From positions 1,364,001-1,428,000 of the forward strand of contig NZ_CP021361.1 in the NCBI RefSeq assembly GCF_002157145.1: a stretch of 64,000 bases of DNA, in the 5' to 3' direction. Shown here in pieces: positions 7,764 through 64,000 of the stretch (its first letter is position 1; each line of letters opens with the position of its first letter). The notes beneath the pieces are model-generated. The model saw only the letters and a program-made list of their open reading frames with translations. It searched no databases and was not told where the DNA came from. The stretch comes from Acidovorax carolinensis. GTDB lineage: Bacteria > Pseudomonadota > Gammaproteobacteria > Burkholderiales > Burkholderiaceae_C. A program made the position numbers and the translations under genes.

Positions 7764-9018
7764 CATTGGTGGCTTCCCTTTTTACATCACCAGCCACCAG
7801 CTCGGCAGCAGGTTCCAGCGGCTTTCCCGCCAGCGCCACCATGCCGCGCATCAGCAACCAGTGCTCGGCAGCGTTCAGCGCCGTATCTTGCGCCCAGCGC
7901 CTGACATCGGTCACCGCCATGTCGCGGGACATCCACACGGTTTCTTCCCAGTACCATGTCGCCAGCCATGTGGCGCGTTCGCCGCTGACAGCATTCACGT
8001 ACCGCAGCTGCGGCGCCTGGTGCCCTGCCGCCTCAAACCGCTCGGCAATCGCCGCTTGGTGCGCAGCCGACAGCCGCCCTTCGCCCTCAATCTTCAGCCA
8101 AAGCCTCAATCCCTGCGCCCAGCTGTTTTGGCCCAGTCGCATCGCCGTGGCCATTGGCACATCGGCTCGCAGCGCCCGTGCCGTCGGCTCCAGCACCACG
8201 CCCGCTTCGGCATAGCGCAAAGCCGCAGTTGGTGACAGCTCGACGCGCCATTCATCGCTGTTGCCCTGCTCCTGGGCGATATGCGCTTGCAATGCTTCAG
8301 CCACACACTGCCACCACAACACGTGCAGGCCCGGGGCATCGTCAATGCCCATCGTTGCCCGTTCCAACTGAGCTACCTGCCGCGCCAGCACCAGTTGCGG
8401 CACTCCCATCGCCTCGGCCGCATCCCGAAACGCTAGCATGGCGTGGCCCTCGCTGACCGAGCGCCCCAGCGCCCTCCGGGCAAACCTCAGCACCCAAGCA
8501 TGGTCTGTTCGCCCCGACTTGGCTTGCCACAACAGCACCACAGCCACAGCGCCCAGCGTATCGAGCGACTCGCGCAAGGCCTCCTCAAACCCTGCGGTGC
8601 CCATCCACGCATGCCACTGCACCAGCTCGGTGATGCCGTACGCCGCCATGAACCACACCAACACGCGCAGCGCACGCACAGGCTCCCGGGCTTCTACGTT
8701 CCAAAGCAGGCGAGCCAGCTCGGCATCGCCTTCGTCGCTTTGCAGGTACTGCTCCAGCAAGGCCTGCAGATCCCGCAAGGAATCCAAGCCCAGGCGGGGT
8801 CGGGCATGTTTGCAGAAGTACCTCACCGCTGCCATGCGCTGCGGCCACGCCGGTGGTGTGTGCAGCGCCGTGTCGATCAGCTCCAAAAGCAGCTGCGCTG
8901 CGCCATCCCCGGTTTCATGATTCGACATTTGCGAACGGTGTGACTGCTGCGCTGGAAACTCCAACAGTGCGGTCAACAACCGCTCAAACGGCTCGGGCGT
9001 CAAGGAATCGTCGAGCAT
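7750..9018 (-). CDS. Hypothetical protein, third gene of the left module
   Basis: 422 aa, family not recognised. The start at 9018 (MLDDSLTPEPFERLLTALL) is supported by GGAGG seven bases upstream on the coding strand. The protein is rich in Ala, Leu, Trp and Arg and looks largely alpha-helical, with no clear signal peptide, Walker motif or metal-binding cluster. Blocks such as WQRMAAVRYF-like and RALRVLVWFMAAYGITELVQ suggest helical repeats. It follows the cysteine protease gene by 167 bp on the same strand and probably belongs to the same transcript. It is nearest to attL, a usual position for cargo genes. No function can be stated. Confidence 0.75.
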   Translation of the reverse strand: MLDDSLTPEPFERLLTALLEFPAQQSHRSQMSNHETGDGAAQLLLELIDTALHTPPAWPQRMAAVRYFCKHARPRLGLDSLRDLQALLEQYLQSDEGDAELARLLWNVEAREPVRALRVLVWFMAAYGITELVQWHAWMGTAGFEEALRESLDTLGAVAVVLLWQAKSGRTDHAWVLRFARRALGRSVSEGHAMLAFRDAAEAMGVPQLVLARQVAQLERATMGIDDAPGLHVLWWQCVAEALQAHIAQEQGNSDEWRVELSPTAALRYAEAGVVLEPTARALRADVPMATAMRLGQNSWAQGLRLWLKIEGEGRLSAAHQAAIAERFEAAGHQAPQLRYVNAVSGERATWLATWYWEETVWMSRDMAVTDVRRWAQDTALNAAEHWLLMRGMVALAGKPLEPAAELVAGDVKREATNEKKF

Positions 9019-9185
9019 GAGGAATACCCTCCAAGGAAAGAAGCGAAAACGAAAATAAACGCCATATAGAAAGCTCCCGCCCATGCAGCAGCGGCACCTT
9101 GCACAAAGCTCGGCGCGACCAAAAGCGGAAGTTGAGAAAAGAAAAGGAGAGAGAAAAACCGAAAGGAGGAACGAGCCGAACGGGG

Positions 9186-9797
9186 CTACTCGTCCTCTTG
9201 CGGCTGCGCCACAGGTGACAGCACCAGCACGGCGTCGATGTTCACGCGCTCACTGAACGTGGCCACCACACGCCGTGGCTGCTTGCTCGCCCAGCCGGTC
9301 AGCATGGCATTCCACGGCACCAGCGGTATCGGTGCCATGGCCGGGTCCAGCACCAGCAAATCGCTGCGCTCCCCCGCCTCGCAGCGCACCCCCACTGCCA
9401 ACACCCAGTGCATGTAGCGCTCGGTAGAAAAGCACACCAAACACAGGTGACCTTCTTCCAGGGCATCCAAGGTGCGTTCGATCACGCGTGAGCGCACTTC
9501 CTTGCAGTGCACGCGCTCGGCATAGGGGGCCAGTTGCTGCTGGAGTTCTTCGACCTCGCAGCCATCAAAGTAGTACCGCTGCGCCACTTTGCGCAACGCC
9601 ACCAGCCTCGCATCCTTGGTGTCCCAGATCAGCGCATTGCGCCGTACTTGGCCAAACACCATCAAAGCCATCAAAACGCAGTGGTAGCCACACGTGGCGT
9701 CAACCTCCCCCTGGCGCACATGCAGCCGTTGGTTGCCCACCATGGGACCGTGCATGCCAGCGCCCAGCCGGGGGTGGCAATGGTAGGAATGCTGCAT
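9186..9797 (-). CDS. Papain-like/C39-like cysteine protease fold protein
   Basis: 203 aa. A cysteine-protease triad can be traced: Cys36 (or Cys40) in VDATCGYHCVLMAL with Gln29 upstream as possible oxyanion residue, His130 in RYMHWVLAVGV, and Asp151 in LLVLDPAM. This order and spacing match C39/papain-like peptidases. There is no ABC-transporter or membrane domain and no signal peptide, so it would act in the cytoplasm. It starts 3 bp after the stop of the 108-aa gene. In mobile islands such stand-alone proteases can be effectors or processing enzymes; which applies here is not known. The family assignment is from motifs only. Confidence 0.6.
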   Translation of the reverse strand: MQHSYHCHPRLGAGMHGPMVGNQRLHVRQGEVDATCGYHCVLMALMVFGQVRRNALIWDTKDARLVALRKVAQRYYFDGCEVEELQQQLAPYAERVHCKEVRSRVIERTLDALEEGHLCLVCFSTERYMHWVLAVGVRCEAGERSDLLVLDPAMAPIPLVPWNAMLTGWASKQPRRVVATFSERVNIDAVLVLSPVAQPQEDE

Positions 9798-9800
9798 GGC

Positions 9801-10127
9801 TCAGTATTCCTCCGGCAGCAGCAAGGTGGTCGAGCGCCGGTCGGCCTCGGTGATGATCCACAGCCGGTGGTTTGGCGGGATGTCGTAGGCGGACAGGACA
9901 CGGCTGCCATACGTGAGAGCTGCAGCATTCGCTTGCTTGTCCTCATTGCACAGGTCACCCCAATCCCCAGCGACGTGACGCAGCACAAACGGCAGCGGTG
10001 CCAGCTGCAGTGCTTCGAGCATGTCGAGCGCACCGGGCGTGATCAGCACTTGGCCCAAGGGAAATAAGGGGCGGCGTTGTTGTTCATAGCGCGCCAATGC
10101 AGCGGCCTGACCAGGCGAAGAGGTCAT
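9801..10127 (-). CDS. Small conserved mobile-element protein
   Basis: 108 aa, starting at MTSSPGQAAAL with an AGGAG site upstream. The pattern LFPLGQVLITPGALDMLE, then RHVAGDWGDL, then LSAYDIP and WIITEADRRSTTLLLPEEY, is one I recognise from small proteins common on plasmids and integrative elements, often misnamed as restriction-related. No biochemical role is known to me. First gene of the left three-gene module (10127 to 7750). Confidence 0.75.
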   Translation of the reverse strand: MTSSPGQAAALARYEQQRRPLFPLGQVLITPGALDMLEALQLAPLPFVLRHVAGDWGDLCNEDKQANAAALTYGSRVLSAYDIPPNHRLWIITEADRRSTTLLLPEEY

Positions 10128-53865: not shown

Positions 53866-54051
53866 ATGCGCATGCGCAAAAAGCACGACCTGCCGCACAA
53901 AACCTGCCTGCATTGCGGTCTGCCGTTCACATGGCGCAAGAAATGGGAGAAGGTGTGGGACGAGGTGAAATACTGCTCTTACCGTTGCCGCAGCGAGCGC
54001 AAGCGCAGGGGTAATGCAACGGATGCCACAACCTCAGAGGGTGCTGCATGA
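53866..54051 (+). CDS. DUF2256 small zinc-finger-like protein
   Basis: 61 aa. The whole pattern HDLPHKTCLHCGLPFTWRKK followed by WEKVWDEVKYCSYRCRSER is the DUF2256 signature, with four Cys that could bind zinc. Function unknown; it is widely found beside photolyase/cryptochrome genes. Its stop overlaps the start of the cryptochrome gene (ATGA at 54048-54051). Confidence 0.92.
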   Translation: MRMRKKHDLPHKTCLHCGLPFTWRKKWEKVWDEVKYCSYRCRSERKRRGNATDATTSEGAA

Positions 54052-55367
54052 GCACCGTGCTCATGTGGTTTCGCAACGACCTGCGCCTGCACGATCAGCC
54101 GGCGCTGCACGCGGCTCTGACCAGTGGCGCCACCCACCTGATGCCCTTGGTGTGCCAGCCACCGGTGGATCAGGTCACGCGCTGGGGCTTTGCCCGCGTG
54201 GGCCCGCACCGCCGCGCCTTTGTGGCCGCCGCGCTGCGCGACCTGGGCGCACGCATGGCCGCGCAAGGCAACCCGCTGCAGGTGTGCCACGCCGCGCCCG
54301 CTACCGCTTTGCCCGCGCTGGCACGCGCCGTGGGCGCCACCACTGTGGTGTGCGAAGACATTGCTGCCCCCTACGAACAGGCCGAGGTGGCCGCCCTGCG
54401 CGCTGCGGGGCTGCAGGTGCGCACTGTGTGGCACAGCAGCCTGCTGCAGCCTGCCGACATGCCGTGGCCTGCATCCGACTTGCCCGGCGTGTTCACCACC
54501 TTCCGCCAGATGGTGGAGCGCGCAGGCATCACCCCACCCGCGCCGCTGCCCGCGCCGGGGGCGCTACTCCCGCCGCCGGCTGTATCTGCCGATGTAGTGC
54601 AAACCCTGGGCGCAGGGCAGGGCGCCGTCACCGCTGGGGCCGATGTCGACAATGCCGCCGGGCAAGACCCGCGCTCCTCTTTCCCCTACGGCACCCCGGC
54701 CTGCGATGGTGGTGAAACCGCTGCCCTGGCCCATCTGGCGCAGTACCTGGCCCGCAAGCTGCCCCACAGCTACAAGGCCACGCGCAATGGGCTCAAGGGG
54801 TTTCAATACTCCAGCAAGTTCTCGCCCTGGCTGGCAACGGGCGCTCTCTCGGCCCGGCAGGTGTTTGCCGATCTGACAACCTTTGAGCGCGAGCACGGTG
54901 CCAACGATGGCACCTATTGGCTGTGGTTTGAACTGCTGTGGCGCGACTACTTTCGCCTGCTGCATCGGCAGCACGGCGCGGCGCTGTACCGTGCGCAGGG
55001 CCTGTCGGCACTGCCCCTGGCCCCGCACAACACGCCGGGGTTCGAACGCTGGTGCCAGGGCCGCACGGGCGAGCCGCTCGTTGATGCCGCGATGCGCGAG
55101 CTGGCCGCCACCGGGTACCTGAGCAACCGCCTGCGTCAGGTGGCGGCCAGCTACCTCATCCATGTGCTGCACGGCGACTGGCGCGCGGGTGCCGCATGGT
55201 TCGAATCACAACTGGTGGACTACGACCTGTACGGTAACCAGGGCAACTGGCTCTACATTGCCGGGCGCGGCACTGACCCGCGCGGTGGCCGCCGCTTCAA
55301 CCCGGTGAAGCAAGCGCAAGATCACGACGCCGACGGCAGTTACCGCCGCCTGTGGGGCACGTTGTGA
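54048..55367 (+). CDS. DASH-family cryptochrome/photolyase
   Basis: 439 aa. N-terminal antenna domain MSTVLMWFRNDLRLHDQPAL; C-terminal FAD domain with YKATRNGLKGFQYSSKFSPW, then LLWRDYFRLLHRQHG and the GNQGNWLYIAGRGTDPRGGR segment diagnostic of the DASH group. DASH proteins repair cyclobutane dimers in single-stranded DNA and may sense blue light. It overlaps DUF2256 upstream and the FeS photolyase downstream (GTGA). Confidence 0.93.
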   Translation: MSTVLMWFRNDLRLHDQPALHAALTSGATHLMPLVCQPPVDQVTRWGFARVGPHRRAFVAAALRDLGARMAAQGNPLQVCHAAPATALPALARAVGATTVVCEDIAAPYEQAEVAALRAAGLQVRTVWHSSLLQPADMPWPASDLPGVFTTFRQMVERAGITPPAPLPAPGALLPPPAVSADVVQTLGAGQGAVTAGADVDNAAGQDPRSSFPYGTPACDGGETAALAHLAQYLARKLPHSYKATRNGLKGFQYSSKFSPWLATGALSARQVFADLTTFEREHGANDGTYWLWFELLWRDYFRLLHRQHGAALYRAQGLSALPLAPHNTPGFERWCQGRTGEPLVDAAMRELAATGYLSNRLRQVAASYLIHVLHGDWRAGAAWFESQLVDYDLYGNQGNWLYIAGRGTDPRGGRRFNPVKQAQDHDADGSYRRLWGTL

Positions 55368-56923
55368 GCACAACGCCGCCTCGTGCCCACACCCTGCGCC
55401 TGCTGCTGGGCGATCAGCTCAACCCCGGGCACAGCTGGTTTGCCACGCGCGACGAAGGCGTGGTCTACGTGCTGATGGAAGTGCGGCAAGAGACCGACTA
55501 CGTGCTGCACCATGCGCAAAAAATCCTGGCCATTTTTGCCGCCATGCGCGACCTGGCCCGCCACCTGCGCGAGGCCGGGCACCGCGTGCGCTATGTGGCC
55601 ATTGACGACGCGAGCAACCGCCAGTCCATCCCCGACAACCTGGCCGCCCTCATGGCCCACTACGGCGCGCAGCAGCTGCACTACCAGGACCCCGACGAAT
55701 GGCGGCTGGATGCGCAACTGCGCGAGTGGGGTGCTACCCAACCCTTTGCGGTGCAGGCCTTCAGCAGCGAACACTTCTACACCACCCGCACCGAAATGAC
55801 CGAGGTGTTCCAGGGCCGCAAACAGTGGCTCATGGAGCACTTCTACCGCCGAATGCGCCAGCGTCACCAGGTGCTGATTGACGCAGCCGGCGAGCCCGAG
55901 GGCGGCCAGTGGAACTACGACCACGACAACCGCAAGCCCTGGCCGGATACCACGGACGCGCCAGCACTGCCGCCCGATGCCCGCCCCACGCACGACCACC
56001 GTGCCCTGTGGGTCGCCATCGAGGCCGCAGGCGTGCAAAGCTTTGGCAACCCCCAGGCGGCTGCATTGCGCTGGCCGCTCAACCGGGCCGAGGCCTTGGC
56101 GTGGCTCGAGCACTTCATCTCCACCACGCTGCCGCACTTTGGTGCATACGAAGACGCCATGAGCACGCAGAGCAACCGGCTGTTCCACTCGCTGCTGTCC
56201 TTCGCTCTCAACACCAAGATGCTGCACCCGCACGAGGTGGTGCAACGCGCCGAGGCCGCGTACCACGCAGGCGCCGCGCCCCTGCCGGCGGTGGAAGGCT
56301 TCGTTCGCCAGATATTGGGCTGGCGCGAATACGTGCGCGGCATTTACTGGGCCCACATGCCCGGCTACGACGAGCGCAATGCCCTGGGCCACCGCACGCC
56401 GCTGCCGCAGTGGTTCTGGTCCGGCAACACCCGTATGCGCTGCCTGGAACATGCCGTGGGCCAGTCGCTGCAGGATGCCTACGCCCACCACATCCAGCGC
56501 CTTATGGTCATCGGCAACTTTGCGTTGCTGGCGGGGCTCGACCCGGCCGCCGTGCACCGCTGGTACCTGGGCGTGTATATCGACGCCTTTGAATGGGTGG
56601 AATTGCCCAACACCGTGGGCATGAGCCAGTTTGCCGACGGCGGCCTGCTGGCCACCAAACCTTATGTGAGCAGCGCCGCCTACATCGATCGCATGAGTGA
56701 CTACTGCAATGGCTGCCACTACGACAAGAAGCTCAAGGTCGGCGACCGCGCCTGCCCGTACAACGCGCTGTACTGGGACTTTTTCGCCCGTAATGAGTCC
56801 ACGCTCGGGCAGAACTTCCGGCTGGGCATGGTGTACCGCCAGTTGCAAAAGATGCAGGGCCCGCAGCTGGAGGCGCTGCGCGGGCACGCCGCCCACCTGC
56901 GCACGCGGCTGGACATCCTGTAG
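55364..56923 (+). CDS. phrB: FeS-type bacterial cryptochrome/(6-4) photolyase
   Basis: 519 aa with GTG start at 55364 overlapping the upstream stop; an upstream ATG at 55352 is in frame but inside the previous gene. The four cluster-binding cysteines are at 360, 448, 451 and 464 (MRCLEH; YCNGCHYD; ACPYN). The spacing 88-3-13 equals that of Agrobacterium PhrB, which binds a 4Fe-4S cluster. WREYVRGIYW is the conserved FAD region. Predicted to repair (6-4) photoproducts or act as photoreceptor. Confidence 0.93.
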   Translation: MSTTPPRAHTLRLLLGDQLNPGHSWFATRDEGVVYVLMEVRQETDYVLHHAQKILAIFAAMRDLARHLREAGHRVRYVAIDDASNRQSIPDNLAALMAHYGAQQLHYQDPDEWRLDAQLREWGATQPFAVQAFSSEHFYTTRTEMTEVFQGRKQWLMEHFYRRMRQRHQVLIDAAGEPEGGQWNYDHDNRKPWPDTTDAPALPPDARPTHDHRALWVAIEAAGVQSFGNPQAAALRWPLNRAEALAWLEHFISTTLPHFGAYEDAMSTQSNRLFHSLLSFALNTKMLHPHEVVQRAEAAYHAGAAPLPAVEGFVRQILGWREYVRGIYWAHMPGYDERNALGHRTPLPQWFWSGNTRMRCLEHAVGQSLQDAYAHHIQRLMVIGNFALLAGLDPAAVHRWYLGVYIDAFEWVELPNTVGMSQFADGGLLATKPYVSSAAYIDRMSDYCNGCHYDKKLKVGDRACPYNALYWDFFARNESTLGQNFRLGMVYRQLQKMQGPQLEALRGHAAHLRTRLDIL

Positions 56924-56968
56924 TCACCTGGCACTCTGTGCCCCCCACCTCCATACCGGAGCCCACCC

Positions 56969-57682
56969 ATGACCATGCCAACCCTCCCATCCCTGCCGCA
57001 GGGCTACCGCGCCATCGTCATCGGCGCCACCGGCGCCATCGGAAGCGCCTTGCTGGCCCAACTGCAGGCCGACCCACGCTGCGCCCAAGCCGTGGGCCTG
57101 GGCCGCCACACCACGCCCGCGGTGGACCTGGACGACGAAGCCACCATTGCTCAAGCCGCCGAGCAACTCAAAGCCCATGGGCCATGGCACTGCATCATCC
57201 ACGCCGCAGGCATGCTGCACGGCCCCCGTGGCCTGCCCGAAAAACGCCTGAGCCAACTGAATTACGCACAGATGGAAGCCACCTTTCGCACCAACACCTT
57301 CGGCCCCGCCCTGGTGCTGGCCCACTTTGCCCCGCTGCTGGCCAAGCGGGAGCGCAGCCTGCTGGCCGTGCTCTCCGCCAAGGTGGGCAGCATTGGCGAT
57401 AACCAGTTGGGCGGTTGGTACAGCTATCGGGCATCGAAAGCGGCCCTCAACATGTTGCTCAAAACCGCGTCGATCGAAATGGCCCGCACCCACCCGCAGG
57501 CGGTGCTGGTGGCGCTGCACCCGGGCACGGTGAACTCGGCGCTGTCGGCGCCGTTCAATGGGGCAGAGATTGGGCGGCCGGCTGCAGAGGCTGCCGCCGA
57601 TTTGCTGCGGGTGCTCGATAGGCTGGGGCCGGAGAAGACGGGCGGCTTTCACGCCTACAGCGGGCAGGAACTGCCGTGGTGA
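56969..57682 (+). CDS. Short-chain dehydrogenase/reductase, CsgA-like
   Basis: 237 aa SDR. Cofactor glycine motif GATGAIG at about residues 19-25, IIHAAGMLHG (NNAG equivalent), Ser in LAVLSAKVGSIG and catalytic YSYRASKAAL with Tyr and Lys. SDRs of this type often lie next to cry/phr genes in light-responsive clusters. Substrate unknown. It follows phrB by 45 bp. Confidence 0.88.
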   Translation: MTMPTLPSLPQGYRAIVIGATGAIGSALLAQLQADPRCAQAVGLGRHTTPAVDLDDEATIAQAAEQLKAHGPWHCIIHAAGMLHGPRGLPEKRLSQLNYAQMEATFRTNTFGPALVLAHFAPLLAKRERSLLAVLSAKVGSIGDNQLGGWYSYRASKAALNMLLKTASIEMARTHPQAVLVALHPGTVNSALSAPFNGAEIGRPAAEAAADLLRVLDRLGPEKTGGFHAYSGQELPW

Positions 57683-57869: not shown

Positions 57870-59159
57870 TTACCGTGTCGTGGCCGCGGTGGAGGTGCTT
57901 GCGCCGACCGCCAGGTTGGCCTGCACGTTCACGCTTTGCTGCACCAGCGAAGCAATGCCGCTGTTCTGGCTGGCGATCATGATGCCCGCAGCCGACTGAC
58001 CCACGCTGCTCATGGTGTTGGACATGTCGAACGTACCGGCGCTCACGGTATTCGTTCCGCCCGCGCCGCCGATACCGCCCTGGCCGGCTCCGCCCGTGCC
58101 CGCGCCCGCAGTGTTTACGCCACCGTTGCCTGTGCCGCCGTTACCCCCGGTGCCGTTACCTCCAGCGGCGCCGTTGCCGGCGGTATTGGAGCCGTTGCCG
58201 GCGTCGCCGTTGGTGGCGCTGCCATTGGTACTTGCGCCACCAGCGCCACCGGTGCCCACACCTCCAGTGCGGGCGCCGCCGCCGCTGGTATTGCTTGCTG
58301 TACCGCCTGTACCTGTGCTGTTGGAGGCGCCGCCGGCACCGGTGTTGCCGCCGTTTCCACCTGAGCCGCCCAAGGCGCTCGCTGCAATGGCGGGGGTTTC
58401 GCCGTCAGTAGGTATGCCTTGGTTGCCGCCGCCGTTGGCCGAGCCACTGCCGCCGCCATTGCCACTACCTTTGCCATTGGCAGAGGCCATGCTGCTGCTG
58501 TCGCCGCCGTTGGCGCGCCCGCCATAACCCTTGCCGCCGTTACCGGCGTTGGCGTCGCCGTTGCGGGCGTCGCCGTTGCTGACGTTGCCATTGGAAGCGT
58601 AGCCACCCGAACCGCCCATGCCACCGTCGCCGTAGCCGCCCGATCCACCCTGGCCCGAACCCTTGGCATCGCCACCATAGCCCTTGCCCCCATCGGCGCC
58701 ATACGCTTTGCCACCGTTGGCATTGCCGTAGTTGGTGACGTTGTTGCCAATGTCACGCACCTTGTTGCCTGTGACCATGCCATGGAGGCTGCTGGTGGCT
58801 GTGGCCTTGGACACGTTGAAAGCGTCGGTGAAGCTGCCCGTTGAGCCATTGCTTATCACAGCAGAACGTTCCGCGCCGGCTGTGGCAGCGCCCGACCGCT
58901 TGTTGACGCTGTTGTCCGTACGGTCCGCGTTGCGCGTAAGGGTGATGTTGTCGTTGCTGTTTCGCGTGCTGGTTTTGGAGCTGTTGTCGGTATACGAGCG
59001 ACTGTTGTTGTCGTTGCTGTTGATGGTGCTTTCGCTGGTGTTGCTGTTGTCCCCAGTTACGGTGACCTGGTCGGTGGTCTGGTTCGTAGTGCTGGCGAAA
59101 GCCACGCCACTGATGCCAAATGCAACTGCCATGGCCGAAGCCACAAGTGTCTTCTTCAT
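57870..59159 (-). CDS. Secreted Gly/Asn-rich protein, FapC-like, paralogue 2
   Basis: 429 aa. The start at 59159 gives a signal peptide (MKKTLVASAMAVAFGISGVA, cleavage near FAS-TT). Then an Asn/Ser/Thr-rich segment, a conserved block SLHGMVTGNKVRDIGNN, a long Gly/Asn/Ala-rich low-complexity middle and the conserved C-terminus VGQSAAGIMIASQNSGIASL with VQQSVNVQANL. A paralogue at 61455-62675 shares all these blocks. The composition, signal peptide and nearby FapD-like peptidase and FapF-like porin suggest a functional-amyloid or matrix subunit. Low-complexity frames on the opposite strand are shadows. Confidence 0.82.
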   Translation of the reverse strand: MKKTLVASAMAVAFGISGVAFASTTNQTTDQVTVTGDNSNTSESTINSNDNNSRSYTDNSSKTSTRNSNDNITLTRNADRTDNSVNKRSGAATAGAERSAVISNGSTGSFTDAFNVSKATATSSLHGMVTGNKVRDIGNNVTNYGNANGGKAYGADGGKGYGGDAKGSGQGGSGGYGDGGMGGSGGYASNGNVSNGDARNGDANAGNGGKGYGGRANGGDSSSMASANGKGSGNGGGSGSANGGGNQGIPTDGETPAIAASALGGSGGNGGNTGAGGASNSTGTGGTASNTSGGGARTGGVGTGGAGGASTNGSATNGDAGNGSNTAGNGAAGGNGTGGNGGTGNGGVNTAGAGTGGAGQGGIGGAGGTNTVSAGTFDMSNTMSSVGQSAAGIMIASQNSGIASLVQQSVNVQANLAVGASTSTAATTR

Positions 59160-59692
59160 AACGCCTCCTGAGTGGATTGAAACAAGGTCAAGGGTTGAGT
59201 TGCGCGCACGCAATTCGGGGGGCTTTTAGCAACTTCAGTGCCAATCACATGAGTGCCGATTGCAACGGTGCGGTCCTTGCATGGGACACAGCGATTCGAG
59301 GGAGCAGAAGAGACATGTCCAACGTGAAGCAGTTGCAATGCTTGCGCGCGAACTGTCACAACAGCTTGACGGCAATACAGCCGTGCAAAGCGGTTTCGGC
59401 GGATTTGGTTCGGCCCTTGCAGTCCTGCCTGTTGGTCCATGCCGAATGCACTACGCAACTGCAGTAGCACTGATGTCGCAGCAGTGTGACGATGTGGGTG
59501 CAGGGCGCGCATTGCCGCATGATCAATCGCACGCAACAAGGGCCGAGCGACACATTGCAGTGGCTTTGCCCAGTGCACGCAAAGGCAGCCAGGGGTGGCT
59601 TCAGAAGATGCTGACAGGACGTACATGATGCTATTAGATGTATAGCTGTATGCGCTTTTCTATCAATCGGTTGAGCTTGATTTTTCGCATGG
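59160..59692. promoter_or_regulatory. Upstream region of Gly-rich gene 2
   Basis: No gene seen. The first ~90 bp (59175-59260) repeat the region upstream of the paralogue (62690-62780): GGTTGAGTTGCGCG, ACGCAATTCGG and AGCAACTTCAGTGCCA recur in the same order. This probably holds a shared promoter and 5' leader. Near 59630-59690 a further AGCTGTATGCGCTTTT segment recalls the interspersed repeat. Confidence 0.5.
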
Positions 59693-60280
59693 TCAACGCT
59701 GTCCAATGCTCTGCTGAACCGCCTCGGTCAGCGTGTTGTGCAGGTTCATGGACCGCACCATGCCCAATCCGTTGCTGCTGGCATTGATGATGGTTTGGTA
59801 GCGGATCTGCTGGTTGTTCAGGGAGTTCTGTATCAGCGTGCCTGTGCTGCTGCCGGCGATGGCGGTGACTGTGGGTCCAGCTGCATCGGGGTTGCTGATG
59901 GTGGTGGTCGAGGGGCTCGATGCAAAGGTGTTTCCCGGGCCGTTTTGCACCAAGCTGAGGGTTGCCAGCTTCTGGCTCAGCTGGGTTGCCTGCGCCGGCG
60001 TGATGTCTGCCATGCGGCCGACGTTGATCGTGGTTTCGGTGATCAGTGCGCCGTTGATGTACACCGCGCGGGAGATACCGAACGACACCATCAGCCCATC
60101 ACCCAGGCTGAAGCCGCCACGCAGCGAGTCCAACTTCTGGTCGCCCACGGCCATCCAGAACCGGTCTTGCACCGGTGGCGCAGCATGGGCACTGTTCGCC
60201 AGTGTCCCCAGCAGGCTCAGTTGCGCTGCAGTCCGGATGATGGCTAAGGCCGTTTTCACACGGAAATGCAGGTTGCGCAT
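59693..60280 (-). CDS. Exported protein with LDSLRGG motif, Fap-cluster accessory
   Basis: 195 aa. Signal-like N-terminus MRNLHFRVKTALAIIRTAAQ ending near AHAA. Contains QKLDSLRGGFSLGDG, a double-glycine motif shared with the small protein at 60975-61361, then NGALITETTINVG. The C-terminal half is Asn/Ser-rich (LIQNSLNNQQIRYQTIINAS). Start overlaps the stop of the C39 peptidase gene (ATGA), so the two are coupled. Family unnamed; may be comparable in role to FapE/FapA. Confidence 0.72.
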   Translation of the reverse strand: MRNLHFRVKTALAIIRTAAQLSLLGTLANSAHAAPPVQDRFWMAVGDQKLDSLRGGFSLGDGLMVSFGISRAVYINGALITETTINVGRMADITPAQATQLSQKLATLSLVQNGPGNTFASSPSTTTISNPDAAGPTVTAIAGSSTGTLIQNSLNNQQIRYQTIINASSNGLGMVRSMNLHNTLTEAVQQSIGQR

Positions 60281-60960
60281 CAGAAGTCTCCCGGCCCCTG
60301 CTTTTGCAGGGTAAAGCCGCTAATCCCGGCCCGCGCTACGTCACTGCCGATGGGTGCGCGAGGCGCCACACGCCATTCGGCGGCAAGGTTGAAGCGTGCG
60401 GAATCCATGCGGTTATGGATGACAAACAGCAGTTTGCTTTGCCAGTGGGATTCGAAGTCCTCGCGCGAAAGAGCGCGCGTGCCTTGCGCCGGATCGCCCA
60501 CCAGAACGCGGTCGCCTTGCAGGCCCTTGACCACGACGAAATGCTGGTAACCGTTTTCGTTGATCAGCACGATGGCAGGAATACGCGCCTCCAGTAACTT
60601 GTCCAGTGGTTGCTCGAACCCGTCTGCCAGGAAGCCGAGGCTGCCCAAAAAGCGCTTCATGTCGAGCAACGAGAAGCCTTCGCGCTGGATCTTTGCCTGG
60701 TCGCCATGGATATACATCTGGGCAAACACGGTCTGTTCGTCGATCGGTGTGCCGTAGTGGTGGGTAAGCAACGTGGCGATGGCCGCCGAACCGCAGCTGA
60801 AATCGAATTTCTGGAGCAATGTGCCAGCCAGGCGCGCCTGTTTGATGCTGGTCACGGGCAAGGTCACGTCGCCGACACCCGTGGACGGGAAATAGGCCGT
60901 TTGTGCACACACACCAGTTGCCAAGCCAAGCAGCGCGATAGAAAAGAGAGCGAGTCGCAT
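60280..60960 (-). CDS. Exported C39-family peptidase, FapD-like
   Basis: 226 aa from ATG at 60960 (a GTG at 60969 is also possible). Signal peptide MRLALFSIALLGLATGVCAQ. Peptidase C39 triad: Cys56 in FDFSCGSAAIATLL with the preceding Gln, His140 in GYQHFVVVKGL and Asp156 in LVGDPAQG. C39 peptidases cut after double glycines. FapD of Pseudomonas amyloid operons is of this type. It lies between two small secreted proteins that each have an LDxxRGG motif, its likely substrates. Confidence 0.85.
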   Translation of the reverse strand: MRLALFSIALLGLATGVCAQTAYFPSTGVGDVTLPVTSIKQARLAGTLLQKFDFSCGSAAIATLLTHHYGTPIDEQTVFAQMYIHGDQAKIQREGFSLLDMKRFLGSLGFLADGFEQPLDKLLEARIPAIVLINENGYQHFVVVKGLQGDRVLVGDPAQGTRALSREDFESHWQSKLLFVIHNRMDSARFNLAAEWRVAPRAPIGSDVARAGISGFTLQKQGPGDF

Positions 60961-60974
60961 GGTGGCCACCGGGG

Positions 60975-61361
60975 TCAGTTCATCTGCACGTGCACGATGA
61001 CGGCGTTTTGGATCAGCACGTTCGCGCCCGAGTTCTGAATCACGACGGGCATTCCGTTCATGTTGGCGAAAGCACCAGCGCTGATAGCGTTGTTGCCGGT
61101 GTTGACGTTGTGCGCCGTGTTGTCGGCAGTGGTCCCTGCCAGTGTCAAATCGTTGCTTACCTGGGAGCTACCGCCACGGTATGTGTCGAGGGAGGCGTTG
61201 TCCACGGCCGAAGCTACAAAGGCGGATGGTGCGGGCGCAAAGGGCACGCGTGCGCTGTCTGTTTCCGTGATTACATGGTGCACTTGCGCTGTCGCATGGA
61301 CTGTCAGCAATGATGCAGCGATCAGGCTCAGAACTGCGTGGATGGTGCGGGTCGAGGTCAT
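60975..61361 (-). CDS. Small exported protein with LDTYRGG motif
   Basis: 128 aa from ATG at 61361 (GAGGG upstream). Signal peptide MTSTRTIHAVLSLIAASLLT ending near ATAQ. The mature part has ASLDTYRGGSSQVSND, then an Asn/Ala-rich stretch NTGNNAISAGAFANMNGMPV and the C-terminus IQNSGANVLIQNAVIV. Its tail resembles minor amyloid subunits. First gene of a three-gene unit with the peptidase and the 195-aa protein. Confidence 0.75.
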   Translation of the reverse strand: MTSTRTIHAVLSLIAASLLTVHATAQVHHVITETDSARVPFAPAPSAFVASAVDNASLDTYRGGSSQVSNDLTLAGTTADNTAHNVNTGNNAISAGAFANMNGMPVVIQNSGANVLIQNAVIVHVQMN

Positions 61362-61400
61362 GGGTGAGCCCTCTATGAACAAGGTGGACGGCAGAAAATG

Positions 61401-61437
61401 CCGCGCAGCCGTGCATGAAAAAGCACGCGCCGCGCGG
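61401..61437 (-). terminator. Hairpin downstream of the Gly-rich gene at 61455
   Basis: CCGCGC (61401-61406) pairs with GCGCGG (61432-61437), inner GTGC/GCAC; flanked by AAAA at 61395 and TTTT at 61438, so on the minus strand a T-run follows. Similar to 57807-57844. Confidence 0.65.
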
Positions 61438-61454
61438 TTTTCTGTTGGCTGCGC

Positions 61455-62675
61455 TTACTTGCCGACGGCCAAGTTGGCCTGTACGTTCACGCTTTGCTGC
61501 ACCAGCGAAGCAATGCCGCTGTTCTGACTGGCAACCATGATGCCCGCAGCCGACTGACCAACGCTGGTCATGGTGTTGGACATATTGAAGGTGCCAGCGC
61601 TCACGCTGTTCGTGCCACCCGCGCCGCCAGTGCCGCCCTGGCCTGAGCCGCCCGTGCCAGCGCCGGCGGTATTCACACCACCGTCGCCGTTGCCGCCGTT
61701 GCCACCGGTGCCATTGCCACCAGCGCCGCCATTGCCGGCGGTGTTGGTGCCGTTGGTGGCACTGCCGTTGGTGGCGCTGCCGTTGGTGCTTGCGCCGCCG
61801 GCGCCGCCGGTACCCGCACCTGCAGTGCGAGTGCCGCCGCCGCTGGTGTTGGTAGCCGTACCGCCAGAGCCGCTGGCGGTGGAGTTGCCACCGGCACCGG
61901 GGTTTCCACCGTTGCCACCGATGCCAGCCCCACCGTCGTTGTTGCCGCCATTGGCCGAGCCGCTGCTGCCGCCGTCTCCACGACCTTTGCCGTTGGCGGA
62001 GGCCGTGCTACTGCTGTCGCCGCCATTGGCGCGGCCACCGTATCCCTTGCCGCCGTCACCGGCGGTGGAGTTTCCGTTGCTGGCGCTGCCGTTGGTGACG
62101 TCGCCGTTGGAAGCGGAGCCACCCTTGCCGCCCTTGCCACCGTCGCCCGCGCCGCCATCGCCGCCCTGGCCATAGCCTTTGGCATTGCCGCCATAGCCCT
62201 TGCCGCCATCGGCGCCATAGGCTTTGCCGCCGTTGGCATTGCCTTCGTTGGTGGCGTTGTTGCCAATGTCACGCACCTTGTTGCCTGTGACCATGCCATG
62301 GAGGCTGCTGGTGGCTGTGGCTTTGGACACGTTGAACGCATTAGTGAACGTGCCGGTGGAGCCATTGCTCACCGCAGCCGAGCGCGCACCGCTGGCTGTG
62401 GCGTCGCCAGAGTCCTTGTTGACGCTGTTGTCGGTCTTGTTGGCGTTACTGGTTTTGTTGATCGTGTCGTTGTCGTTCTTTGTGTAGTTGCGCACACTGT
62501 TGTTGGTCTTGACGACGCTGTTGTTGTCTGTGCTGGTGGTGTTGCTGGTGACGTTATTGGTGTTGCTTCCTTCTTCGGTCGCCTGGGTTGTGGTTTGGTT
62601 GGTGTCGCTGGCAAATGCCGCGCCGCTGATACCGAACGCAATTGCCATGGCCGAAGCCACAAGTGTCTTCTTCAT
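61455..62675 (-). CDS. Secreted Gly/Asn-rich protein, FapC-like, paralogue 1
   Basis: 406 aa, start at 62675 with signal peptide MKKTLVASAMAIAFGISGAA. Same plan as the gene at 57870: Asn/Thr-rich N-terminal part (NNVTSNTTSTDNNSV), SLHGMVTGNKVRDIGNN, long Gly-rich middle, C-terminus VGQSAAGIMVASQNSGIASL ending AVGK. The two genes arose by duplication with their leader and terminator. Divergent from the FapF-like porin gene. Expected to be exported and to form extracellular fibres or matrix. Confidence 0.82.
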   Translation of the reverse strand: MKKTLVASAMAIAFGISGAAFASDTNQTTTQATEEGSNTNNVTSNTTSTDNNSVVKTNNSVRNYTKNDNDTINKTSNANKTDNSVNKDSGDATASGARSAAVSNGSTGTFTNAFNVSKATATSSLHGMVTGNKVRDIGNNATNEGNANGGKAYGADGGKGYGGNAKGYGQGGDGGAGDGGKGGKGGSASNGDVTNGSASNGNSTAGDGGKGYGGRANGGDSSSTASANGKGRGDGGSSGSANGGNNDGGAGIGGNGGNPGAGGNSTASGSGGTATNTSGGGTRTAGAGTGGAGGASTNGSATNGSATNGTNTAGNGGAGGNGTGGNGGNGDGGVNTAGAGTGGSGQGGTGGAGGTNSVSAGTFNMSNTMTSVGQSAAGIMVASQNSGIASLVQQSVNVQANLAVGK

Positions 62676-63266
62676 AAAGCCTCCTACGGTGGAATGAACC
62701 AAGATCAAGGGTTGAGTTGCGCGGACGCAATTCGGAGGACGTTCAGCAACTTCAGTGCCAGTCACCTGCCAGTGGGTTGTGGTTGTGCGGCCCTACAGGA
62801 GAAAAGGCAAGTCAATGTGGCGAATGGGCATTTGCAGAGTGAAGTGGACGGGATGGTTCCGCGCAAAGTGTCACAGGAGGTTGACGCCGGGACCACATGT
62901 CGCAGCGCTTTCGGTGTTTTCGCTTCTGCTGTGGCAGTTGATTCTCATGAAGAATCGCCCTGTATTTGTCCTTCCACTGGTGTCTCAGTGCTGTGACGCT
63001 GGCTGTGTCGGGGCGCGTGCGAGGGGGGTGATGCACGGATATAGCCGTCGAATCGAGCATTGCGAATCACATGCGCGGACGCTGCAGATTCCGCACCAAT
63101 CTTTGGGCCTGTCACTTGATACCAGTGTGAAGTCTTGCACCCAAAATTACTTCCTCTTGCAGAGTGTTGCTTGCCCGATGAGAGCCTCGCTCCTATTCTT
63201 GCCCGGCGTTCACCGCCACTGTTGGCAAAACAAAAACGCCGTTGCAGCGCCATGGGGAGTAGTCGC
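62676..63266. promoter_or_regulatory. Divergent promoter region of the Fap-like cluster
   Basis: 590 bp without a convincing gene between paralogue 1 and the FapF-like gene. The part next to paralogue 1 (62690-62780) is duplicated at 59175-59260. I see no clear sigma-54 or other named site here. Confidence 0.45.
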
Positions 63267-64000
63267 ATGAAAACGCACAGTTCACCCAGATCGTGGGTTC
63301 TGGTTACCGGTTCGGTCATGGCCCTTTCAAGCGCCATGGTGCAGGCACAAAGCTTGCCTGCCCGCCAGGGCATTGGCCAGCGCCTTGAGGCACTGGAGGA
63401 GCAGGTCAGCGCACAACGTCGCCAGATCGAGGCAATGCAGCGGCAGGTACTTGACCAGGAGGCCCGCTACCGGGACTTGGAGCGCTCGGTTGCCGAAGCA
63501 GCGCGCAACGCGCCGCAGCCGGTCACGGCAGAGGCGGCGCCTGCAGGCAAGGCGCCTGCGGACACCGGGGAACGCCCCGTGCAGGTGGGGGTGGCACCGG
63601 CAGTGGACAACCAGCCTCCGGCGGTGGCGCCCTTGTTCGACCAGCCCGGCATCCTCACGCAGCCGGGCCACTATGTGCTCGAACCGTCTCTGCAATACGG
63701 CTATTCGTCCAGCAACCGCGTGGCCCTTGTTGGCTACACCGTCATTCCGGCGTTGTTGATCGGGCTGATTGACGTACGGGAAGTGAAGCGCAACACACTG
63801 ACTGCGGCGCTCACAGGCCGGTGGGGACTGACCCGCCGCCTTGAAGTCGAGATGAAGGTGCCCTATGTGTACCGCTCGGACAATTCGATCAGCCGTGAGA
63901 TCTTTACGGGGTCGGCATCCGAGCAGGCGTTCAACTCCAGCGGCCGAGACATTGGCGATATCGAGTTTGCGGCGCGCTACCAGCTCAACGAGCCCAAGGG
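63267..64000 (+). CDS. FapF-like outer-membrane protein, 3' end outside the window
   Basis: 244 codons visible, starting MKTHSSPRSWVLVTGSVMAL with a signal peptide ending near VQAQ. Then a coiled coil (RLEALEEQVSAQRRQIEAMQ), a Pro/Ala-rich linker, and the barrel start PGILTQPGHYVLEPSLQYGY, IPALLIGLIDVREVKRNT and EVEMKVPYVYR. This order (coiled coil, linker, barrel) is that of FapF, the trimeric pore that exports Fap amyloid subunits. It is incomplete because the window ends. Confidence 0.8.
   Translation, partial: MKTHSSPRSWVLVTGSVMALSSAMVQAQSLPARQGIGQRLEALEEQVSAQRRQIEAMQRQVLDQEARYRDLERSVAEAARNAPQPVTAEAAPAGKAPADTGERPVQVGVAPAVDNQPPAVAPLFDQPGILTQPGHYVLEPSLQYGYSSSNRVALVGYTVIPALLIGLIDVREVKRNTLTAALTGRWGLTRRLEVEMKVPYVYRSDNSISREIFTGSASEQAFNSSGRDIGDIEFAARYQLNEPK

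Follow-up and report, generated by a model that had tools for sequence, protein, structure and literature searches.

The described systems closest to the locus analysed here are the Fap amyloid systems, typified by fapABCDEF of Pseudomonas, in which a FapD-type C39 peptidase with a signal-like start is accompanied by a downstream FapE-type protein and a FapF-type pore. FapD and FapF were assigned to larger families in a 2013 survey (PMC3792158). As far as excerpts of later papers go (PMC5135000, PMC5557850, PMC6173800, PMC6363468, PMC6959990 and PMC12822426 are cited from excerpts throughout), the C38A change in FapD abolishes secretion, complete N-terminal processing was seen in FapE alone, FapF may be cut in its linker, and the Fap proteins were considered in 2017 to be without canonical C39 sequences, the FapD target being unclear (PMC5557850); the substrate was still to be determined in 2018 (PMC6173800), and by 2025 FapD was thought to process FapE and FapF (PMC12822426), so that this idea of the FapD target is already published. 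The FapD leader itself was not found in print in the open-licence literature searched. Here we describe a locus at the end of a stretch of 64,000 nucleotides from Acidovorax carolinensis (the window; contig NZ_CP021361.1, positions 1,364,001 to 1,428,000), which probably belongs to a Fap-related secretion lineage distinct from fapABCDEF, and in which two small proteins bear a putative double-glycine leader for a FapD-like peptidase.

The window breaks off within the gene cluster, which belongs to a 4.12-Mb single-contig genome; coordinates below are those of the window. On the minus strand the transcription order is GlyA, B, C39 peptidase, E and GlyE. GlyA (61455..62675, 406 aa) encodes a glycine-rich protein with a signal-like start, the candidate cargo, and GlyE (57870..59159, 429 aa) is a second copy of this gene. 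Between them lie B (60975..61361), encoding a secreted-type protein of 128 aa, the peptidase gene (60280..60969, with a GTG start at 60969 and an alternative ATG at 60960), the product of which also has a signal-like start, and E (59693..60280, 195 aa). On the plus strand, a gene for a FapF-like outer-membrane pore begins at 63267 and continues past the window end at 64000 to 64568; nine bases after it, beyond the window, comes a gene for a VpsR-domain sigma-54 regulator (64578-65951). A previous sequence-only reading of this DNA had named the pore, the peptidase and the duplicated glycine-rich genes, all of which held up, and had overlooked B and E; the regulator, just outside the window, had not been seen either.

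The pore aligns over residues 115-432 with the crystallised FapF barrel (PDB 5o67, E=1.8e-35) and matches the NCBIfam FapF model at 171.5 bits across nearly its whole length, under the cutoff of 700; the sequence-only reading had considered that it might be an unrelated porin, and this alignment speaks against that. The peptidase matches Pfam PF03412 (84.3 bits) and, below the curators' threshold of 330 bits, the NCBIfam C39_FapD model (137.1 bits), and keeps its catalytic residues, Q53, C59, H143 and D159 being invariant across 19 aligned sequences. The solved structure closest to its alignment profile is 6mpz (E=1.4e-10), a double-glycine protease complexed with a leader peptide (PMC6959990). 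By profile comparison E is a distant homologue of FapE and B is a paralogue of E: hhalign scored E against FapE at 46.2 (best of 24 column shuffles, 23.9), with similarity only in the N-terminal part, which comprises the signal, the leader and the FGI region, and B against E at 68.1 along the full length (best of 24 column shuffles, 19.0). A Foldseek search with the predicted E model returned a best E-value of 0.2 and was not used.

Published C39 substrate leaders follow the pattern L(-12)xxxE(-8)L(-7)xxxxG(-2)G(-1), in which residue -4 sits in a hydrophobic groove and positions -10 to -4 form a helix (PMC6363468, PMC6959990). Judged by this spacing, E and B both carry a putative recognition site for the peptidase, at residues 45-56 of E (positions -12 to -1, ...LDSLRGG; 60113..60148, minus strand), as located by motif scan, alignment and model, and at residues 53-64 of B (likewise -12 to -1, ...LDTYRGG; 61170..61205, minus strand), as located by motif scan and alignment. 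Unless stated, counts refer to the best 80 of at least 582 related loci; components were called by phmmer at E<=1e-4, and some contigs break off within the cluster. The motif L...RGG stands behind a signal-like start in 79/79 E and 64/80 B proteins, the other 16 B having SGG (10), RAG (2), HAG (2), TGG (1) or RGK (1), with Leu -7 by pattern; two glycines occupy -2/-1 in all 79 E and in 75 of the 80 B. It occurred in none of 78 glycine-rich proteins, none of 80 proteases and 112 of the 7793 other open reading frames (ORFs) of these loci, and between residues 25 and 110 in none of the 179 other ORFs with a signal-like start. In an alignment of E, L50, R54, G55 and G56 are invariant (39/39). When positions -13 to -3 were compared, the fraction of LIVMF residues at -7, -12 and -4 was 1.0, 0.81 and 0.61 in E (next position, 0.05) and 1.0, 0.85 and 0.50 in B (next position, 0.14), the leucine at -7 being set by the search pattern. 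A predicted model of E (mean pLDDT 67.2) places a helix at residues 47-53, that is, -10 to -4, and residues 55-58, which include the glycine pair, form one of its two stretches with pLDDT below 50. The E ORFs of two relatives (L139 and L181) are, with starts as called, much longer (329 and 580 aa) and have long segments ahead of the RGG.

The leaders of E and B agree with the C39 substrate pattern in having a hydrophobic residue at -12, Leu at -7, a hydrophobic residue at -4 and small residues at -2/-1. With PCAT1, LahT and ComA and their double-glycine substrates, the window system shares the peptidase fold, the catalytic residues and a leader spacing of hydrophobic -12, Leu -7, hydrophobic -4 and Gly-Gly. 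It differs from them in that the peptidase stands alone, with a signal-like start and without fusion to an ABC transporter, in that the leader lies behind a signal-like start rather than at the N-terminus, and in that Arg -3 is constant in E while the acidic -8 is mostly lost.

It might be asked whether L...RGG is a cleavage leader at all, or whether it serves instead in docking or export, with the FapF pore or another factor as its reader, or is a structural part inherited by the paralogues E and B. Since B resembles E over its entire length, the motif cannot be counted as independent in the two; moreover, a conserved FD..GL.VSFGI follows it in E, and classic FapE has Arg or Lys at -1, which is unusual for C39 cleavage. 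On the other hand, the spacing of -12, -7, -4, -2 and -1 is that of C39 leaders, B keeps the motif while the residues after it vary, FapF has the motif in 20 of 75 loci even though it is unrelated to B and E, and FapD activity is reported as needed for Fap secretion (PMC5557850, excerpt). We regard a docking or structural role as unlikely. Of the 44 loci whose FapF and protease genes share a strand, 17 have the motif in FapF, as do three of the 31 with FapF on the opposite strand, and in the 80-locus set the motif sits, by eye, between an N-terminal stretch and the linker. The classic FapF of two loci (L093, L094) has a stretch resembling the leader, and a double-glycine motif in FapF has been noted before (PMC5135000, excerpt).

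Leader spacing of this kind also occurs in classic Fap systems, for which we assembled 14 FapD-model matches above 200 bits (five of them over the cutoff of 330) from 13 loci (L082-L094). All 13 classic FapE measured have LIVMF at -12 and -7, an acidic -8 and, at the leader end, RG or HG with Arg or Lys as the next residue; the LIVMF fraction at -4 is 0.77 (n=13), and a fourteenth FapE (L088) has the same motif. An arginine at -1 also occurs outside classic FapE, because in two loci with window-type E the B leader ends in SGR or RGR. A broader reading, which we hold tentatively and at somewhat less than an even chance, is that a widespread second Fap-type lineage exports glycine-rich cargo other than FapC, that a stand-alone periplasmic C39 peptidase matures Sec-exported FapE-type proteins by a true double-glycine leader, and that, as the same leader occurs in classic FapE (with Arg/Lys at -1) and a like motif in part of FapF, one rule would cover FapD cleavage across Fap systems. 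A leader is not claimed for FapA: on reading, seven of the classic rows listed show an ELSDxDFxxVxSG-like stretch spaced like a leader, but FapA is reported as unprocessed (PMC5557850, excerpt). Two loci are unusual in their peptidase genes. In L096 (same genome as L046 and L058) the subunit-B-C39-E cassette appears to be tandemly duplicated, with two C39 matches 2.9 kb apart, Asn-rich subunits and B ending SGR, and L087 (L037, L057) has two Fap-type C39 genes with 4.9 kb between them and two additional small proteins with leader-like stretches ending GRY or GRF.

The gene set is conserved. All of the 80 loci have B, while E was found in 79, a protein of the glycine-rich type in 78 and FapF in 75, and 20 further loci from the same family or order gave 20, 20, 19 and 17, respectively. 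The order B-C39-E, judged by stop codons, holds in all 79 loci with the three genes, so some loci that list B or the glycine-rich gene on the wrong side of the C39 gene were taken as start-site artefacts of ORF calling. Two arrangements are most frequent across the 100 loci, Gly>B>C39>E>F> with 36 cases and F<Gly>B>C39>E> with 34; two loci have two glycine-rich genes upstream, and none has a second one downstream of E, in which the window stands apart. The suggestion of the sequence-only reading that the gene order is rearranged therefore applies to the pore but not to B-C39-E, and the divergent position of the pore is a known kind of variation, since in classic Fap a pore apart from the operon has been described in four of 16 genera (PMC3792158).

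The origins displayed for the 80 loci are Comamonadaceae, the family whose survey for the gene set had been proposed, together with Burkholderiaceae, Oxalobacteraceae, Sphaerotilaceae, Rhodanobacteraceae and Lysobacteraceae, and the set of Gly-B-C39-E plus FapF is found repeatedly in both Burkholderiales and Xanthomonadales. Among 299 genomes of the same family, 30 had a C39 match at E<=1e-15, and 19 of these matches, the window's included, are at least 52% identical; three genomes of the same genus are listed without such a match at that threshold. The FapD model (E<=1e-25) matched 25 of 299 genomes of the phylum and none of 14 well-known control genomes. The earlier proposal of a distinct betaproteobacterial system stands insofar as this is probably a distinct Fap-related lineage that is common in betaproteobacteria, but it is not confined there, as Xanthomonadales have it too. 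Given the relations to FapD, FapE and FapF and a gene set present in both groups, it is reasonable to pursue the idea of a separate system related to Fap.

The candidate cargo also differs from that of Fap. GlyA and GlyE are 75% identical by blastp (78% in a genome search, in which GlyA matched at the GlyA and GlyE places alone), and the DNA upstream of both matches for about 210 bases before the starts. Their glycine content of 25-26% compares with a median of 12.3% in 13 classic FapC, in line with the sequence-only reading that they are richer in glycine. Sixty-three relatives taken as full length (250-900 aa, MKK-like start) have a median length of 461 aa (range 251 to 870), with 28.3% Gly (lowest 14.8%), 9.1% Asn and 2.3% Gln. 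GlyA ends in a conserved C-terminal module, QNSG...LVQQSVNVQANL. Three relatives (L045-L047) have Asn/Asp/Ser-rich subunits instead, so that glycine richness does not define the whole lineage.

These proteins had been called FapC-like; they are real glycine-rich genes, but homology to FapC is unsupported. A profile built from 49 Fap repeats matched none of 79 glycine-rich proteins and none of 80 E, and the FapA, FapB and FapC models of Pfam and NCBIfam found no match in the locus proteins. Compared with Fap repeats, the C-terminal module of the glycine-rich protein was equalled by two of 24 column shuffles, and B by one of 24; readings of the glycine-rich proteins or B as FapC, FapB or FapA thus found no support. 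Against a FapA profile B gave a probability of 0.3%, and fapA is frequently absent from classic operons as well (PMC3792158). By eye the end of B looks like a FapB repeat, a resemblance that did not clearly beat controls. No curlin family matched GlyA, GlyE, B or E at E<=1 in Pfam or NCBIfam, so curli was rejected, as was GGX-type (polyglycine II) periodicity, since glycine at lag 3 exceeded expectation by a factor of 1.16 in each copy, a value that lies within the spread of 2000 shuffles. At lag 5 it reached 1.36 and 1.30 times expectation in the two copies, a comparison without shuffle control. Structure prediction of GlyA was uninformative (pLDDT 43) and not used.

Could the locus nonetheless be an ordinary, divergent Fap amyloid operon, with the glycine-rich protein as a rapidly evolving FapC, B as FapB or FapA, and an amyloid fibre as the product? 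Homologues of FapD, FapE and FapF are present, Fap homologues are generally of low identity (18% for FapC outside Pseudomonadales; PMC3792158), some loci with the same gene set carry Asn-rich rather than Gly-rich subunits, and the Fap-repeat profile did match 14 of 81 B weakly (top 9.1 bits, none above 10) against three of 405 shuffled B (top 9.0). Yet the glycine-rich end and B fail against column shuffles, the repeat profile finds no glycine-rich protein, the family models find no FapA, FapB or FapC, and the classic proteases form a well-supported group of their own, all of which makes a divergent Fap operon improbable. A protease tree of 107 rows unites the 13 classic FapD rows in a single group (100/99), and a single change accounts for the 87 rows of the window lineage (support 73/80; a single change suffices in 72% of bootstrap trees). 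This tree is rooted at the midpoint only, and according to a program warning both the classic rows and the seven outgroup rows sit on long branches, which meet. One feature used to judge membership in Fap, the presence of FapB and FapC with Fap repeats, was not found here. Because the locus shares FapD, FapE and FapF relatives yet fails this repeat test, we class it as a variant related to Fap rather than as a true Fap operon. Differences from fapABCDEF also include a glycine-rich cargo with few Gln, a leader-bearing B between the cargo and protease genes, a leader ending RGG and not RGR or RGK, and, in this window, a pore on the opposite strand. Models based on Fap repeats, such as the one built here, miss the glycine-rich product.

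We also compared the locus with Fil, a putative pilus system of Acinetobacter. FilB and FilC models match the window protease (119.7 bits, under the curated FilB cutoff of 475) and pore (50.3 bits), but neither is the best match, both proteins scoring higher with the FapD and FapF models, and membership in the Fil system was rejected. The rows that we labelled FilB-like and took as outgroup form their own group in the protease tree, and in 18 FilB-like loci scanned the neighbours had no convincing leader.

Two perfect matches to the sigma-54 (-24/-12) promoter pattern lie in the window, one upstream of GlyA (62745..62760, minus strand) and one upstream of GlyE (59228..59243, minus strand), against 0.17 expected. 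In the 64 usable loci, among them the window's own, such sites lie mostly 76-132 bases ahead of the glycine-rich start, with at most one mismatch in 38 and at most two in 60, compared with 37 and 248, respectively, of 4000 random 350-base stretches. Ahead of FapF, sites with at most two mismatches occurred in five of 76 cases, near the control rate of 248/4000. The regulator, the sole VpsR match in the genome, combines a VpsR domain, a sigma-54 interaction domain and a Fis-type helix-turn-helix; in 28 of 75 loci a regulator judged similar to that of the window stands no more than 1.5 kb from FapF.

These observations suggest the following mechanism as the most likely one. The VpsR-domain sigma-54 activator encoded beside the pore gene would switch on the glycine-rich genes from their -24/-12 promoters, and the products would reach the periplasm by Sec. 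There the C39 peptidase may recognize the double-glycine leader of E and B, with its hydrophobic residues at -12 and -4, Leu at -7 and Arg at -3, and cleave after Gly-Gly. Mature E and B would enable the FapF-like pore and perhaps seed or anchor the glycine-rich proteins, which could then cross the pore and form a surface fibre or matrix. Alternatively, the Fap-type route may export the glycine-rich product as an adhesin or a filler of the matrix, soluble or only loosely bound, without a fibre being made; its low complexity, the lack of amyloid repeats found and its variable length would fit this. Against such a filler, the C-terminal module is related to the end of B (P=4e-6, from a single profile comparison without shuffle control), which suggests assembly, and export of this type is known for fibres only, so that we consider it rather doubtful.

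Several points count against our interpretation. Computation shows that the protease, E and the pore have homologues in Fap, that the gene set is conserved, that E and B share a leader and that promoter sites are present; from this we infer that the regulator activates the genes, that the protease cleaves its targets, and that the cargo is exported, seeded or anchored and built into a fibre. Since Leu -7 was part of the search pattern, -12 and -4 alone are independent evidence for the leader, and -4 is LIVMF in just half of B; the acidic -8 is rare (0.05 in E, 3/80 in B). Signal-like starts were called by a simple hydrophobicity rule, matches of the glycine-rich proteins depend partly on low-complexity sequence, and the E model is of moderate confidence (pLDDT 67), with its other stretch under 50 at residues 142-145. 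The window's own FapF is without L...RGG. As for classic FapE, Arg or Lys at -1 does not suit the narrow canonical C39 cleft described in PMC6959990 (excerpt), and FapE peptides are reported absent from the first ~70 residues (PMC5557850, excerpt), which leaves 30 residues unexplained because the motif ends near residue 40 in Pseudomonas-like FapE.

Should the interpretation hold, the leader would place bacteriocin-leader logic behind Sec, in the periplasm. It makes FapD recognition testable, as it gives the exact residues to change and the N-termini to seek, and it hints that a glycine-rich surface product is frequent in genera such as Variovorax, Cupriavidus, Dyella and Massilia.

Finally, at 54048-57682 in the window, a short-chain dehydrogenase gene (from an NCBIfam search) stands in a row with two photolyase-type genes, which we take to be photolyase-like and cryptochrome/photolyase-like. 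Beyond the regulator, which occupies 8578-9951 of the flanking stretch L002, come what are presumably genes for a Lon-like protease (L002:9968-12508) and a ferrochelatase-like protein (L002:12572-13681).

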